Origin: Schlesneria sp.
GTDB lineage: Bacteria > Planctomycetota > Planctomycetia > Planctomycetales > Planctomycetaceae
NCBI GenBank assembly: GCA_028291515.1
Contig: JAQGHU010000102.1
Location: 1 to 64,000 of the forward strand
Direction of reading: 5' to 3'
DNA length: 64,000 nucleotides
Made by a program: the position numbers and the translations under genes. The notes under the pieces were generated by a model. That model was not told where the DNA came from, searched no databases, and saw nothing but the letters and a program-made list of their open reading frames with translations. Positions 43,455 to 61,049 of this stretch are shown here, one piece after another (positions within the stretch are counted from its first letter, which is position 1; every line of letters begins with the position of its first letter).

Positions 43455-44843
43455 TCAAGTCTGAGCGGACGTGGTCAAAGGCAAGGCCGGTGGCGTTTCG
43501 TCGCGCCTGTTGTCGGTATCATGCCGTTCAGCATCGAGTTTGGCCAGATTCAGCCAGACGGTGAAGGTCGCGCCTGGCAACGAACTGGCCGTCAATTCGA
43601 TGCGTCCGTCATTTTGTTCAACGATATTTCGGCAAACAAACAGGCCGAGGCCGGTCCCTGTCTCTTTGGTCGTGAAGTAGGGAGCAAAGACTCGTTCGCG
43701 GTGTTCAGGCGAAATCCCGTGGCCATCGTCCCGAATGTCGATTCGAAGTTCATTGGCTTCAATCGCGGTATGAATCTCGATGCAGCCACCTTCCTCGGTC
43801 GCATCCATCGCGTTCAGGATCAGGTTCAGGAACACCTGGACCAACTGATCGCGAACGATCATCAGCGGCGGCAGATTGTCGACATAATCGGTAACGATCC
43901 GCTTTCCTTTTTTGCGTTTGTAGTACTTGGCAATGTTCAGTGCCGCATCGAGGACCGCGTGGATGTCACATCGAGATCGCTCGTAAACGACTGGACTGCT
44001 GAAGTCGACGAGTTCCCTTAATGTGCGTTGGATGCGACGCAACTGGTCGTCAACCAGTTGCAGCTTTTCGCGGGTTTCGGGCTCGATGTTGCGGCGATTC
44101 AGCAGTTGAACCAGTGAACTAATCGCCGCCAGAGGATTTCCGACTTCGTGAGCGATGCCGGCAGCGAGCAAACCGAAGGCAGCCTGCTTTTCCTGTTGGA
44201 CGATCATCGCCTGCGATTCCTGCAGTTGCCGCGTGCGCTCCAGAATTCGATGCTCCAGCAATCGCTGATTTTCCTGAAGCTCGCCGTTGAGCTGCCCGAG
44301 TCGCGAACTGGCCCATTTCAACAAGCCGATCAGGGATGTCCCGGCCCATGTCACCCATGCCATGAAAATTGGCGTCAGGATCAGGGCGGCAATCTCGTCG
44401 CGGCTGTGAACCGCCAGTGCTAGAGAGATCGCCGAATAGCTAAGGACGTGCAGCCCCAGCGTCGCCCAGGTAATCGATGGCTTGTATCGAATCGCGCAGA
44501 CCAGCAGCGATAGAAAATAGTAGAACCGGAAGGCGCTCAGCACGCCTCCGTCGAAGTAGCACAGCAGGCCGATAAACATCGCTTCCATCAGCGACACGAA
44601 CAAGGGCCATTTGCTAAAAAAAACCTTGCCATGGAGGCTATAGTAGGTGTCGAGGAGCGCGTAGATCGCTCCCAGCACCAGAATGGCGTCCAACGCACTG
44701 CGGTTCGAGGCCTCACCGCCACCGATCAGGTTAACGAGGCCATAGCCGACACAGATCCCAAACCAGCGAATGCGGACGGTGATCGCCTGTACTGATAACT
44801 GCCAATCGAAATCGGGCGATTCGATTGTGGGCGACTGTGACAT
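43455..44843 (-). CDS. Membrane sensor histidine kinase
   Basis: A 462-residue histidine kinase. The first 175 residues are about six closely packed membrane segments without a large periplasmic loop, so the stimulus is probably sensed in or at the membrane. A coiled-coil (about 180-215) leads to the dimerisation domain with phospho-acceptor H232 in AGIAHEVGNPLAAISSL, the NtrB/ZraS-like type. The ATPase domain has the N box NAMDATEEGG, DDGHGISPEHRERVFAPYFTTK and GTGLGLFVCRNI. It is followed by the NtrC-like regulator and forms a two-component system. The signal and targets are unknown. Confidence 0.92.
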   Translation of the reverse strand: MSQSPTIESPDFDWQLSVQAITVRIRWFGICVGYGLVNLIGGGEASNRSALDAILVLGAIYALLDTYYSLHGKVFFSKWPLFVSLMEAMFIGLLCYFDGGVLSAFRFYYFLSLLVCAIRYKPSITWATLGLHVLSYSAISLALAVHSRDEIAALILTPIFMAWVTWAGTSLIGLLKWASSRLGQLNGELQENQRLLEHRILERTRQLQESQAMIVQQEKQAAFGLLAAGIAHEVGNPLAAISSLVQLLNRRNIEPETREKLQLVDDQLRRIQRTLRELVDFSSPVVYERSRCDIHAVLDAALNIAKYYKRKKGKRIVTDYVDNLPPLMIVRDQLVQVFLNLILNAMDATEEGGCIEIHTAIEANELRIDIRDDGHGISPEHRERVFAPYFTTKETGTGLGLFVCRNIVEQNDGRIELTASSLPGATFTVWLNLAKLDAERHDTDNRRDETPPALPLTTSAQT

Positions 44844-57406: not shown

Positions 57407-57479
57407 TTCGCCTGCAATGTCCGATTGGCCTCTCGTCTGTTTGAATATCGAGATCGAGGCATTTTCAGGAGGTGGCGTG

Positions 57480-58946
57480 ATGGCGATGCATCGTTTGGTT
57501 TTCCAGAATCGAAGTTTCCGCTGGGTATTGACCGCAACCGTCGTCGGCACGCTGATGCTCACGTCGCCAATCCTGGCCGACGAGGATGCGGCTGAAGCAA
57601 AATCGGGCGTCACTTTCACGAAGTTGGTCGGATCGTTGTTTTCTGGCGCTGCTGAGAAGGCAGCGGTCGAAGACTCGGCCACTCCACTGCCGGGATCGTC
57701 CCATGTGCAAGCGGGCGAAATTAAGATTCGGGGAACTCGGACCGGCCATCAACTCCAAACGTTCTGCCTGAATAAAGAGGGCCTGATTTTCGCGGTCGTG
57801 GGTGCTCCTCGTTCTTACGGTGCGAAACTGGACGGCAAGAATAACACGGCAGAAATCCGCGTTTTCTCTGCAAGCGGCGAAGAGCTTCGTCAGTGGACTG
57901 TTGATTTTGCCGTGCAGTCCATCGCGATTTCTCCAAGCGGAAAAGTCTTTGCGGCTGGGAACGGCCAGATCGCGAAGTTTGATTCCGAAGGAAAGCTACT
58001 GAAAACAACTGACGCTCCGCATATTGCTTCCCTCTTGAAGAACTCCGCCAAGCTTAAGGAAGAAGCGGAAGCGGCGATGGAAGAGGAAAAAGAACAATAC
58101 CAGGAACAAGTGAAAGCATTGAAAGAGCAGGTTGATCCCCAGCAAAAGATGCTGGACGAAATGAAGACCGCGCTCGCAGCCAAACCGGAAGCAGAGCAAA
58201 CGGCTGCCGCCAAGCGAAAAATTCGGACGCTGGAATTGGCGATCAAGAATCAAGAAACACAAAGCAAGGCAATGCTTCAGTTCTACAAACAGCGAAGCGA
58301 GAGGAAGATCGACGATGTCATCAGCGAAATGACCGGTCGCTTGAAGATCGTGAATGCCTTGGGAGCCACTGACCAGGATGTCTTTATTGCCTCGGGTGTC
58401 GTGAAGGGATATGGCTACGCCATCTGGCGGACCAGCCACGATTTTGAAGGGGCTGAGCAGATCGTGACAGGATTATCTGGCTGCTGCGGGCAGATGGATA
58501 TCGGCTGTTGCAATGACAAGGTGTTTGTCGCAGAAAACAGTCGCAAACGCGTCCTGCAATACGATCGCGACGGGAAGAAGATCGCGCAGTGGGGCGAGGG
58601 AACTCGGAATGGAGCGGATGGTGCCGGATTCGGTGGCTGCTGCAACCCGATGAACGTCTGTTTCGGAACGGACGGCGAAGTGCTCACGTCCGAGTCAGAA
58701 GGCTACATCAAGAAATTCACGAAAGAAGGAAGCTTCCTCGGTGTGGTGGGCCAGGCCAAAGTCAGCGGCGGATGCAAGAACGTTGCCATTGCACTCTCGC
58801 CGACTGGCGAGAAAGCCTATTTCTTCGATCTGCAAGGTTCGCGAATTGTCATCCTCGACAAGAAGGCGGATGGCGATAAGCCGAGTAAAGCAGACAAGCC
58901 TGCTGATGCCGAATCAGTGAAGGCAAAGCCTGTTTCCTTGCGTTAG
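57480..58946 (+). CDS. Secreted NHL-like beta-propeller protein with cysteine pairs and coiled coil
   Basis: A 488-residue protein from the ATG at 57480, preceded by AGGAGGTGGCGTG. Signal peptide about 1-33. Residues 90-175 and 285-460 carry propeller-like strands (AIRVFSASGEELRQW-type, YDRDGKKIAQWGEG). A charged coiled coil (about 190-280) is inserted between them. Cysteines cluster in GLSGCCGQMDIGCCND (332-346), GFGGCCNPMNVCFG (383-396) and SGGC (429-432), each at an equivalent place in a blade. Inferred: the cysteine pairs may bind metal or form disulfides on one face of the propeller. No enzyme motif was recognised. The next gene starts 46 bases later on the same strand. Confidence 0.75.
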   Translation: MAMHRLVFQNRSFRWVLTATVVGTLMLTSPILADEDAAEAKSGVTFTKLVGSLFSGAAEKAAVEDSATPLPGSSHVQAGEIKIRGTRTGHQLQTFCLNKEGLIFAVVGAPRSYGAKLDGKNNTAEIRVFSASGEELRQWTVDFAVQSIAISPSGKVFAAGNGQIAKFDSEGKLLKTTDAPHIASLLKNSAKLKEEAEAAMEEEKEQYQEQVKALKEQVDPQQKMLDEMKTALAAKPEAEQTAAAKRKIRTLELAIKNQETQSKAMLQFYKQRSERKIDDVISEMTGRLKIVNALGATDQDVFIASGVVKGYGYAIWRTSHDFEGAEQIVTGLSGCCGQMDIGCCNDKVFVAENSRKRVLQYDRDGKKIAQWGEGTRNGADGAGFGGCCNPMNVCFGTDGEVLTSESEGYIKKFTKEGSFLGVVGQAKVSGGCKNVAIALSPTGEKAYFFDLQGSRIVILDKKADGDKPSKADKPADAESVKAKPVSLR

Positions 58947-58992: not shown

Positions 58993-59877
58993 ATGACATC
59001 GATCAATCGACGAGTTGCACTCACCGTTTTGGCCAGTTCACCGCTGGTAATTTCTCGATTTCTTCCTGCCGCAGAGCCAGGAACTTCAGCGCCAGATCTG
59101 ACGCTACTGGTCATGGACCCGTTGGCAAAGGAGTTATCGTGTCCGTGCGTGAAAGGCTATGCCCAGCGCGAGTACGATGAACTTGGTAAGCATCTGGCAG
59201 CCAAGTTGAATCGCTCCGTCAAGGTGGTCTATTCAGAGACGATGGTCGGGGCAATCAAAAGCGGAAAGTTGCCGGAAGGGGTCGACCTGATCATCGGCAA
59301 ACGTTCCGTGGTGGAATCGGATGCTCGTCTCAGTCAGGTTGAAATCACCCCTCTGGCGTCGCTCTCTGGTAAGGATGGCATTGCCACGCAATTGGGTCTG
59401 GTCGTCGTTCCGGCTAAGGATCCCGCCAAGTCAATAGCGGACCTCAAGGGCTACCAGATCTACTTCGGGCCCGAGGATTGTGATGAAAAGCACAAAGCGG
59501 CGTTGGATCTACTGAAGCAGAATGGTGTCGCCTTACCGTCGAAGCTGGAGACCTGCGCGGCGTGTAGCGAAGGAGCCACCAAAATCTTGGAACTGGGTCC
59601 AGACGTTCGCGCAGCAACGGTCATCAGCAGCTACGCGGCCCCCCTGCTGGAAGGCTGTGGCACTATTCAGAAAGGGGACTTGCGAGTCGTCGGGAAGACG
59701 GCCCCTGTTCCATTCATTACCGCCTTTGCCACTGATCGGGTCAACAAACAAGACACTGCAGCCATTCAGACGATATTGCTTGACTTGATCGAATCGCCCA
59801 AACTCTGCGGAGCCCTCGAGACTCGCTTGGGGTTCGTTGAGTTGGCGAGCGCAGGCGAGGCGACTAAAAAAAAGTAG
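58993..59877 (+). CDS. PhnD-like phosphate/phosphonate-type substrate-binding protein
   Basis: A 294-residue exported protein. The ATG at 58993 is preceded by GGAG, and the N-terminus has paired arginines (NRRVALTVLASSPL) as in Tat/Sec signals. The body matches the PhnD/SsuA/transferrin-like binding fold (VYSETMVGAIKSGKLPEGVDLIIG, LVVVPAKDPAKSIADLKG). Extra cysteines occur as CPC (50-52) and CAAC (188-191), not typical of PhnD. It ends TKKK and a TAG, and the codons for these lysines form the slippery run noted at 59866-59874. Inferred: the main product may extend into the next frame as a PhnD-PQQ fusion. The ligand is unknown. Confidence 0.85.
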   Translation: MTSINRRVALTVLASSPLVISRFLPAAEPGTSAPDLTLLVMDPLAKELSCPCVKGYAQREYDELGKHLAAKLNRSVKVVYSETMVGAIKSGKLPEGVDLIIGKRSVVESDARLSQVEITPLASLSGKDGIATQLGLVVVPAKDPAKSIADLKGYQIYFGPEDCDEKHKAALDLLKQNGVALPSKLETCAACSEGATKILELGPDVRAATVISSYAAPLLEGCGTIQKGDLRVVGKTAPVPFITAFATDRVNKQDTAAIQTILLDLIESPKLCGALETRLGFVELASAGEATKKK

Positions 59878-59913
59878 TCTCTGAGCCAGCGCCTATCGAT
59901 TGGACTGGCTGGC
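59853..59913 (+). other. Candidate programmed -1 frameshift site linking PhnD-like and PQQ genes
   Basis: An eight-A run (59866-59873) followed by G gives the heptamer A AAA AAG (59868-59874) in the exact codon phase used by dnaX (AAA AAA AAG), immediately before the PhnD-like stop TAG (59875-59877). A -1 slip resumes at GTA (59874) in the frame of the PQQ propeller, which stays open to 61049. Just upstream is a Shine-Dalgarno-like AGGCGAGG (59853-59860), and GCCAGC (59885-59890) can pair with GCTGGC (59908-59913) downstream. A one-base homopolymer mutation or sequencing error would look the same. Confidence 0.6.
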
Positions 59914-59969
59914 GCGGGCCGAAACGGGACGGCCATGTCGCGTGGCTACCAGATCAACTACCAAAAGAA

Positions 59970-61049
59970 ATGGTGCCGGTCTGGAAAAAGCGACTGAGAA
60001 GTACCGGTGTCGGTGGCGTCGCCGCGACGAAGTCCTTCGTCATTGTGTCTGGTCGCGAATCCAGCGATTCGGCCGACGGTTTTCGGTGCTTCAATGCTGC
60101 CGACGGAACCGAGGCCTGGAAGCTGACGTACCCGGCTAAGGGAGACCTCGACTACGGCAACTCGCCGCGAGCAACCCCGCAGATTCACGGCGATTTTGTC
60201 TATCTGCTGGGTGCATTCGGGCACCTGCACTGTGTCAAGTTAGGGACTGGCGACATCGTCTGGAAGCAAGACTTACGTCAGGCGTTCCAAGTCACCCGCA
60301 AGACAGTCTGGGGACATTCGTCGTCTCCTCTGGTTGCGGGTGAGCAGTTGATCGTCAATCCGGGTGGTCCCCAGGCGGGATTCGTGGCCCTTGAACTCGA
60401 CACAGGTAAGGTTCGCTGGAAGACGGATGGAGACGCAGCCGCATTCGCCTCTTTCGTACTCGCGGACATTGGTGGCAGACAGCAGATCATCGGATACGAC
60501 GCCACTTCTTTGGTGGGGCTTGATGTTCCCACCGGGCGAAAGCTTTGGCGACATGTTCCTCGTCGGCCAAATGATTTTAATGTCCCCACCCCGATCCTTT
60601 GGCATGACAAGCTCATCCTCAGCACTGAAAACAATGGCACTCGCTTGTTCGAATTCGATTCAGAGGGCCGTTTGATTGATGAACCGGTGGCCGTGAACGA
60701 AGACCTGGCACCCGATACGCACACGCCGGTTGTCGTCGGTGATCGACTATTTGGTGTGTGGGACGAACTGTACTGCCTGGATCTTAAGGCTAACCTCAAG
60801 ACCGTCTGGACAGGCGAAGCCAAGACGTTTCATCAATACACCAGCCTGATCGCCTCGGAGAATCGCCTGCTGGCAACGGGAATTCACGGTGAACTGCTGC
60901 TGATCGATCCAACCGCCGATCAGTATCGAGAGCTTTCCAGAGTCGATATCGTCGAGGATGATTCTGGGGTTTTCTCGCATCCAGCCATCGTGGGTGATCG
61001 GTTGTACATGCGGACAAGTTCAGACGTGCGATGCTTGGCACTGTGTTAA
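59970..61049 (+). CDS. PQQ-binding-like beta-propeller protein, likely downstream half of a frameshift product
   Basis: The first usable start codon in this frame is the ATG at 59970 (359 residues), but it has no good ribosome site and no signal peptide. The frame is open back to 59868. Its upstream codons spell the conserved opening of the family (IDWTGWRGPKRDGHVAWLP), with no ATG, GTG or TTG in that stretch. The body is a PQQ-type propeller with repeated strands such as DGTEAWKLTYPAKG, TGDIVWKQDL, TGKVRWKTDG and TGRKLWRHVP, ending at LYMRTSSDVRCLALC. Such propellers are normally exported. Translation by a -1 shift from the PhnD-like gene would supply both the opening and a signal peptide (total about 685 residues). 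Confidence 0.72.
   Translation: MVPVWKKRLRSTGVGGVAATKSFVIVSGRESSDSADGFRCFNAADGTEAWKLTYPAKGDLDYGNSPRATPQIHGDFVYLLGAFGHLHCVKLGTGDIVWKQDLRQAFQVTRKTVWGHSSSPLVAGEQLIVNPGGPQAGFVALELDTGKVRWKTDGDAAAFASFVLADIGGRQQIIGYDATSLVGLDVPTGRKLWRHVPRRPNDFNVPTPILWHDKLILSTENNGTRLFEFDSEGRLIDEPVAVNEDLAPDTHTPVVVGDRLFGVWDELYCLDLKANLKTVWTGEAKTFHQYTSLIASENRLLATGIHGELLLIDPTADQYRELSRVDIVEDDSGVFSHPAIVGDRLYMRTSSDVRCLALC

Follow-up and report, generated by a model that had tools for sequence, protein, structure and literature searches.

The window, a stretch of 64,000 nucleotides from a Schlesneria sp. contig, contains a PhnD-like binding-protein ORF and a PQQ-type propeller coding region that meet at a run of eight As followed by a G (Table 1). 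In the 0 frame the junction reads ACT AAA AAA AAG TAG. After a -1 slip the sequence continues GTA GTC TCT and onwards, giving VVSEPAPIDWTGWRGPKRDG, and stays open until a stop at 61047-61049. This propeller frame is open from 59868 onwards, and no start codon occurs in it before an ATG at 59970, which lies beyond the WTGWRGP motif. A preliminary description had reported a slippery A_AAA_AAG heptamer in the correct codon phase, with its last codon AAG directly followed by the stop of the PhnD-like gene, an open propeller frame entered by a -1 slip, and a conserved propeller N-terminus upstream of any start codon; all of this was confirmed from the window sequence.

Table 1. Features at the junction in the window and at A-run loci of other gene families (remarks on conservation refer to the relatives described in the text).
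Feature	Position	Strand	Remarks
NHL-type cysteine-rich protein, conserved neighbour, probable partner	57417..58946	+	homologue upstream, same strand, in 91/99 loci
PhnD-like binding-protein ORF, short product with KKK end	58993..59877	+	Phosphonate-bd PF12974, 53.6 bits (Pfam cut-off 27); conserved C50, C52, C191, C222
SD-like AGGCGAGG of the preliminary description	59853..59860	+	not conserved, no enrichment in 63 loci; probably chance
A8 run, putative slip site	59866..59873	+	G at 59874; 8 or 9 As here in 63/63 unique -1 loci
A_AAA_AAG heptamer, 0-frame phase	59868..59874	+	same phase in 59/63 loci
Coding region of a PQQ-type (BamB-like) propeller in the -1 frame; C-terminal portion of putative long product	59874..61049	+	PQQ_2 PF13360, 80.8 bits (Pfam cut-off 27.6)
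0-frame stop TAG closing short product	59875..59877	+	read from sequence
Third-frame (+1) stop TGA, would end translation where a transcript lacks one A	59882..59884	+	read from sequence
Second family (STN-TPR), L119/L140	G000:C5:18761-20212	minus	A9 junction; relatives L141-L169
Probable dnaX, L170/L216	G000:C5:131673-132905	minus	A10 in frame, stops within 2 codons in both other frames
Putative MBL-fold and caspase-like ORFs, L212	G000:C111:5775-8783		A10, -1 split; run at locus position 1499

Both halves scored above the Pfam cut-offs (Table 1). No NCBIfam model was above its cut-off for either half, the PhnD half reaching 17.7 bits against TIGR01098 (PhnD, cut-off 112.05) and the propeller 46.9 bits against TIGR03300 (BamB, cut-off 285.2). 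A sequence search of the PDB returned a weak phosphonate-binding match for the PhnD half (E 0.032) and BamB for the propeller. The four cysteines of the PhnD half listed in Table 1 are kept in 96-100% of 95 aligned rows. Judged by eye, this half carries a plausible signal peptide; a count of twin-arginine motifs gave 14 matches, the pattern being too loose for use. For L066, whose two halves are naturally fused in frame, a structural model built on an alignment of 27 had a mean pLDDT of 86.8 and a pTM of 0.60, with two confidently predicted domains and a loose linker in which residues 276-286 fall below 50. When the whole fusion was used as query in a fold search, propellers led the best 50 of 1957 PDB matches, with BamB chains at the head, and none of these 50 was specific to the N-terminal domain. 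The NHL-type protein upstream is itself strongly conserved, with C356, C357, C408 and C409 identical in 91/91 homologues and C453 in 98%. Of the eight loci without this homologue, at least three begin so near the PhnD match that it would lie outside them.

With the PhnD half as query, relatives were obtained from 44 of 170 genomes at family level, 87 of 397 at class level and 21 of 392 at phylum level. These sets overlap, and the order-level set consists of the same 170 genomes as that of the family; a search of contigs gave 14 loci. The nearest named relative found was an uncultured Schlesneria, with a PhnD half 78% identical. In all, 118 loci were gathered, of which 113 were examined after five known duplicates were skipped. 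Both halves were present in 99, and 14 gave no propeller match, several of them because the contig ends there. The propeller lies in the -1 frame in 67 of the 99 two-half loci, in frame in 31 and in +1 in a single locus. Three duplicates were removed from the -1 loci, as was L059, which has no run of five or more As near the junction and an internal stop in its PhnD half, leaving 63 unique -1 loci and 95 loci in total. The 63 come from at least 30 genera and five families (three carry no genus code) and form 14 lineages when clustered at 55% identity. Two loci with an additional frame break within the propeller (L010 and L041) were retained in the counts. Also retained was L105 (G202), an in-frame relative with a TAG in its linker and no A run, which may represent readthrough, a split gene or a lesion. 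In the sole +1 relative (L019, G152) the run is A10, and an assembly error is possible.

The preliminary description had proposed looking in other genomes for the run as a mark of programmed recoding, and it was found in every unique -1 locus. Eight As are present in 16 and nine in 47 of the 63, just 5′ of the PhnD-frame stop, which starts 1-10 nt past the run in all 63 and is the very next codon in 48. The run is thus a homopolymer of at least eight whose length is kept across all 14 lineages, each lineage representative having 8 or 9 As, and the coding sequence past it is conserved in the shifted frame, the propeller being homologous in all 63. In the common phase (59 loci) the heptamer ends with AAG in 55 loci and with AAC in four; the remaining four loci carry the run in another phase, in which A_AAA_AAA can be read. 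Codon usage in these genes gives AAA for 37% of lysines and A as third base in 13% of codons. From this usage an extension of the run to nine would be expected in 8.3 loci, compared with the 47 observed, and, given lysine, the chance of AAA at both leading codons in all 63 is 10^-58.9 (shared descent ignored). The preceding codon ends in A in 43 of the 59 common-phase loci and is NAA in none, although 46% of NNA codons are NAA (p 2e-12, kinship ignored). The absence of NAA there limits the run to nine in these loci, and no run of ten As occurs among the 63. Such a cap could also stem from replication instability. Genus g10 has four in-frame loci, three of them (L011, L013, L015) with A10, and removal of one A from L011 or L015 would lead to an immediate TAG.

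A start codon before the conserved W of the propeller is absent in 43 of the 63 -1 loci and present in some form in 20, with an SD-like site in one. The third frame is closed early: a stop within 10 codons occurs in 83% of the 63 loci, compared with 33% in codon shuffles and 29% of the 31 in-frame loci, and early closure is seen in 13 of the 14 lineages. The stimulators that the preliminary description had likened to those of dnaX fared less well. Its SD-like motif is present in the window, but shows no enrichment across the 63 loci, where SD-like matches 5′ of the run are in fact rarer than in control stretches (at least four matching bases in 19% vs 33%). The 60 nt downstream, where a stem had been proposed, do fold more strongly than stretches taken from within the propeller gene (-22.6 vs -17.0 kcal/mol, p 2e-9); however, the signal is weak against dinucleotide shuffles, with a mean z-score of -0.78, compared with -0.34 for in-frame relatives at the corresponding boundary. 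Therefore, what stands of the earlier proposal is a PhnD-propeller fusion and a PhnD-only form arising by programmed recoding, whereas a dnaX-type ribosomal slip with SD and stem stimulators is not supported in detail.

On a quick tree of the 95 loci the three frame states need at least nine changes, of which well-supported branches force four for the -1 label. The in-frame loci without an A run include distant members of the phylum (L110, L112, L113, L118) and two from Verrucomicrobia (L043, L044), and for this reason the slip site may have arisen after the fusion.

The source genome (8.59 Mb, both strands together) has 67 sites with eight or more As, with counts of 21 for AAAAAAAAG and 46 for AAAAAAAAY, one of them the junction. 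The second A8 run of the window, an A8C on the + strand at 44616-44624, lies antisense to a histidine-kinase-like ORF (43455-44843) and showed no ORF junction when examined. Another site in the genome, an A9, links ORFs of 476 and about 455 codons in the -1 frame, with Pfam hints of STN and TPR that are below cut-off. A class-wide search for this second family matched all 198 genomes, and the 30 loci examined come from one taxonomic family and 13 genera. Of these, 28 are in -1 (27 with A9, one with A8), the shifted frame being 424-495 codons long; the other two are an A10 in frame and an A9 in +1. The 0-frame ORF stops 0-9 codons past the run, and A9 is kept mostly in another codon phase than in the PhnD-propeller genes. 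A third-frame stop within 10 codons was found in 21/28, against 56% in shuffles. Many deeper matches have long open frames, and the family may therefore be in frame elsewhere.

A third family is probably dnaX, the name being given from its sequence and the parallel with Thermus thermophilus. Matches were found in 118 genomes, and 26 of the 30 loci examined have an in-frame A9 or A10, an arrangement like that known from Thermus, the other four (two genera) having no run of seven or more. Among the 26 run-bearing loci a -1 stop occurs within six codons in 26 and a +1 stop within 10 in 23, counts that carry no shuffle control. A -1 split at A10 between putative MBL-fold and caspase-like ORFs (L212) is perhaps a candidate for a fourth family. 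Besides the query, its search gave one clear relative, a pair in G091 (L261/L282) with 49% identity and an A9 in a single frame; the other listed matches had E-values of 2e-7 or worse. Exact A9 runs number 6, 7, 8 and 14 in four other genomes, and five of these 35 fall in the PhnD-propeller, STN-TPR and dnaX families. Several further runs were observed. L131 (G000:C60:124582, minus strand) is a 285-codon ORF ending GTT AAA AAA AAG TGA, like the PhnD short form, and a search for a long shifted frame after its run found none. L128 (G000:C49:110054), near a contig end, has 152 codons leading to an A8 junction, past which a -1 frame is open for about 204 codons. In G208, L275 and L278 have an in-frame A9 within long ORFs, with other-frame stops at 9 and 3 codons and at 4 and 23 codons, respectively, and are possible further slip sites.

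Our preferred reading of the PhnD-propeller junction, which we consider fairly probable, is programmed transcriptional slippage that inserts one A at the run. RNA polymerase would mostly copy the A8 or A9 faithfully, giving an mRNA for the short PhnD-like protein. In a fraction of transcripts it would slip back and add one A, making the PhnD and propeller frames continuous and yielding a fusion of about 685 residues, while products of transcripts shorter by one A would be ended by the early third-frame stop. The frequency of slippage would then set the ratio of free to propeller-tethered binding protein, and we infer an exported cysteine-rich complex, formed with the neighbouring NHL protein, in which the binding protein is partly free and partly tethered. 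The conserved run, the frame relation, the early closure of the two remaining frames and the general lack of a propeller start are read directly from the sequences. That the polymerase would be the site of the slip is suggested by the lack of a conserved SD-like motif, the weak stem and a run of 8-9 As that is capped in -1 loci, and by the sharing of the run with an unrelated family in another codon phase and (as A9/A10) with dnaX. The early closure of the third frame points the same way, because ribosomes that shift by -1 never enter it, and we also counted in favour the A10 in the sole +1 locus and in three in-frame loci of g10. Single-base insertions predominate at A/T runs in transcripts of E. 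coli and Buchnera (PMC5574713), which would explain the near-exclusive -1 direction, and a conserved length of nine As among homologues is argued to mark purposeful slippage (Baranov et al. 2005, PMC1088944). The latter paper describes eight As as productive in some bacteria and treats them as non-slippery in one context, which makes the window's own A8 borderline. Against slippage we counted the heptamer phase, right in 59/63 loci, the direction of 63 to 1, the weak third-frame signal of the second family and the report in PMC5574713 that no transcription error restoring the reading frame was detected.

The main rival, which would yield the same junction protein, is a programmed shift of the ribosome by -1 on A_AAA_AAG, A_AAA_AAA or A_AAA_AAC within the run, alone or together with slippage; we regard it as rather unlikely, although it has the heptamer in phase in 59/63 loci (with A_AAA_AAA readable in the other four), the -1 direction in 63 of the 64 shifted loci, a downstream stretch more stable than those inside the gene and, in dnaX, a -1 stop that is tighter than the +1 stop. 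A single direction would be read as ribosomal by Antonov et al. 2013 (PMC3711429), and for this reason the ribosome is kept in consideration. However, there is no SD enrichment, the folding z-score is weak, the third frame is closed early and in-frame relatives carry A10; moreover, the run is always at least eight and never ten in -1 loci, whereas A_AAA_AAG needs just six As. It is very improbable that the run is a phase-variation switch, its length changing in replication to turn cells ON or OFF. A9 and A10 forms do occur inside the one genus g10, but 63 of 95 loci in -1 and 31 in frame, most of the latter without a run, are no random mixture. Length is also shared by near relatives (L052 and L054 both with nine, L095, L096 and L098 all with eight), and L001 differs from L003/L004 (8 vs 9) through a changed preceding codon with the frame kept.

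Equally little credit can be given to a pair of separate genes that relies on an internal or coupled start, or to a fusion broken recently or an error of sequencing. The two halves are fused in frame in 31 relatives, and a start codon of some kind precedes the conserved W of the propeller in 20 of the 63; however, the 43 with none there, and the single start with an SD-like site, disfavour a separate gene or internal start. Against a lesion or error, this combination of run and stop is repeated across at least 30 genera, also in single-contig genomes. Since the 63 -1 loci keep the run across these genera, the sequences argue for conserved recoding over sequencing error or lesion.

A close parallel to the proposed transcriptional slippage at this junction is dnaX of Thermus thermophilus, where slippage occurs at nine As (PMC3711429, PMC5009743). 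It shares with the PhnD-propeller genes an A run of nine, two product lengths and early stops in the non-productive frames; however, it is a different gene, and its long product lies in the 0 frame with slippage giving the short one, whereas in the -1 loci slippage would give the long one. In IS elements and Shigella mxiE, too, slippage adds a base and so joins two ORFs; the run consists of As in the former, 8-9 of them as in the PhnD-propeller genes, and of Us in the latter (PMC1088944). Unlike an IS transposase or the mxiE plasmid regulator, the PhnD-propeller is a chromosomal two-domain protein found in at least 30 planctomycete genera. The -1 ribosomal frameshift of E. coli dnaX has A_AAA_AAG in phase and the same direction, but only six As, compared with the 8-9 seen here with neither a conserved SD-like motif nor a strong stem. 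The poly-A clusters of Antonov et al. 2013, a two-ORF dnaX included, are similar in having a -1 poly-A junction at which the long product needs recoding; that set held just two planctomycete genomes, and its main text makes no mention of PQQ or phosphonate (PMC3711429). The PhnD-propeller and other A-run families were not found described in the open-access literature on planctomycete frameshifting or transcriptional slippage, where, judged by title, Antonov et al. 2013 was the one listed paper that deals with bacterial frame transitions. The slippage mechanism is already known, and the gene families and their spread appear new relative to that literature.

To our knowledge, the greater part of conserved recoding in bacteria is located in mobile elements, prfB and dnaX. 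Here, a recoding site of a chromosomal two-domain protein is kept in at least 30 genera, and a second family has the same signal. Gene finders that follow one frame would probably call such genes truncated or split. Whether ribosome or polymerase slips is directly testable on these A8-A10 genes and, if slippage is the true mechanism, they offer a natural series of conserved sites for measuring polymerase slippage in gene control. A broader reading, which we hold tentatively as possible though not the more probable case, is that tracts of 8-10 As at domain boundaries give planctomycetes a general means of switching between isoforms, with RNA polymerase reading the tract, in at least three unrelated families (PhnD-propeller, STN-TPR and dnaX), perhaps with the MBL-caspase-like pair. 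On that reading, because the three families are tuned to the same run length, the polymerase of the lineage would slip productively, and, were it true, selection would have used polymerase slippage outside mobile elements.
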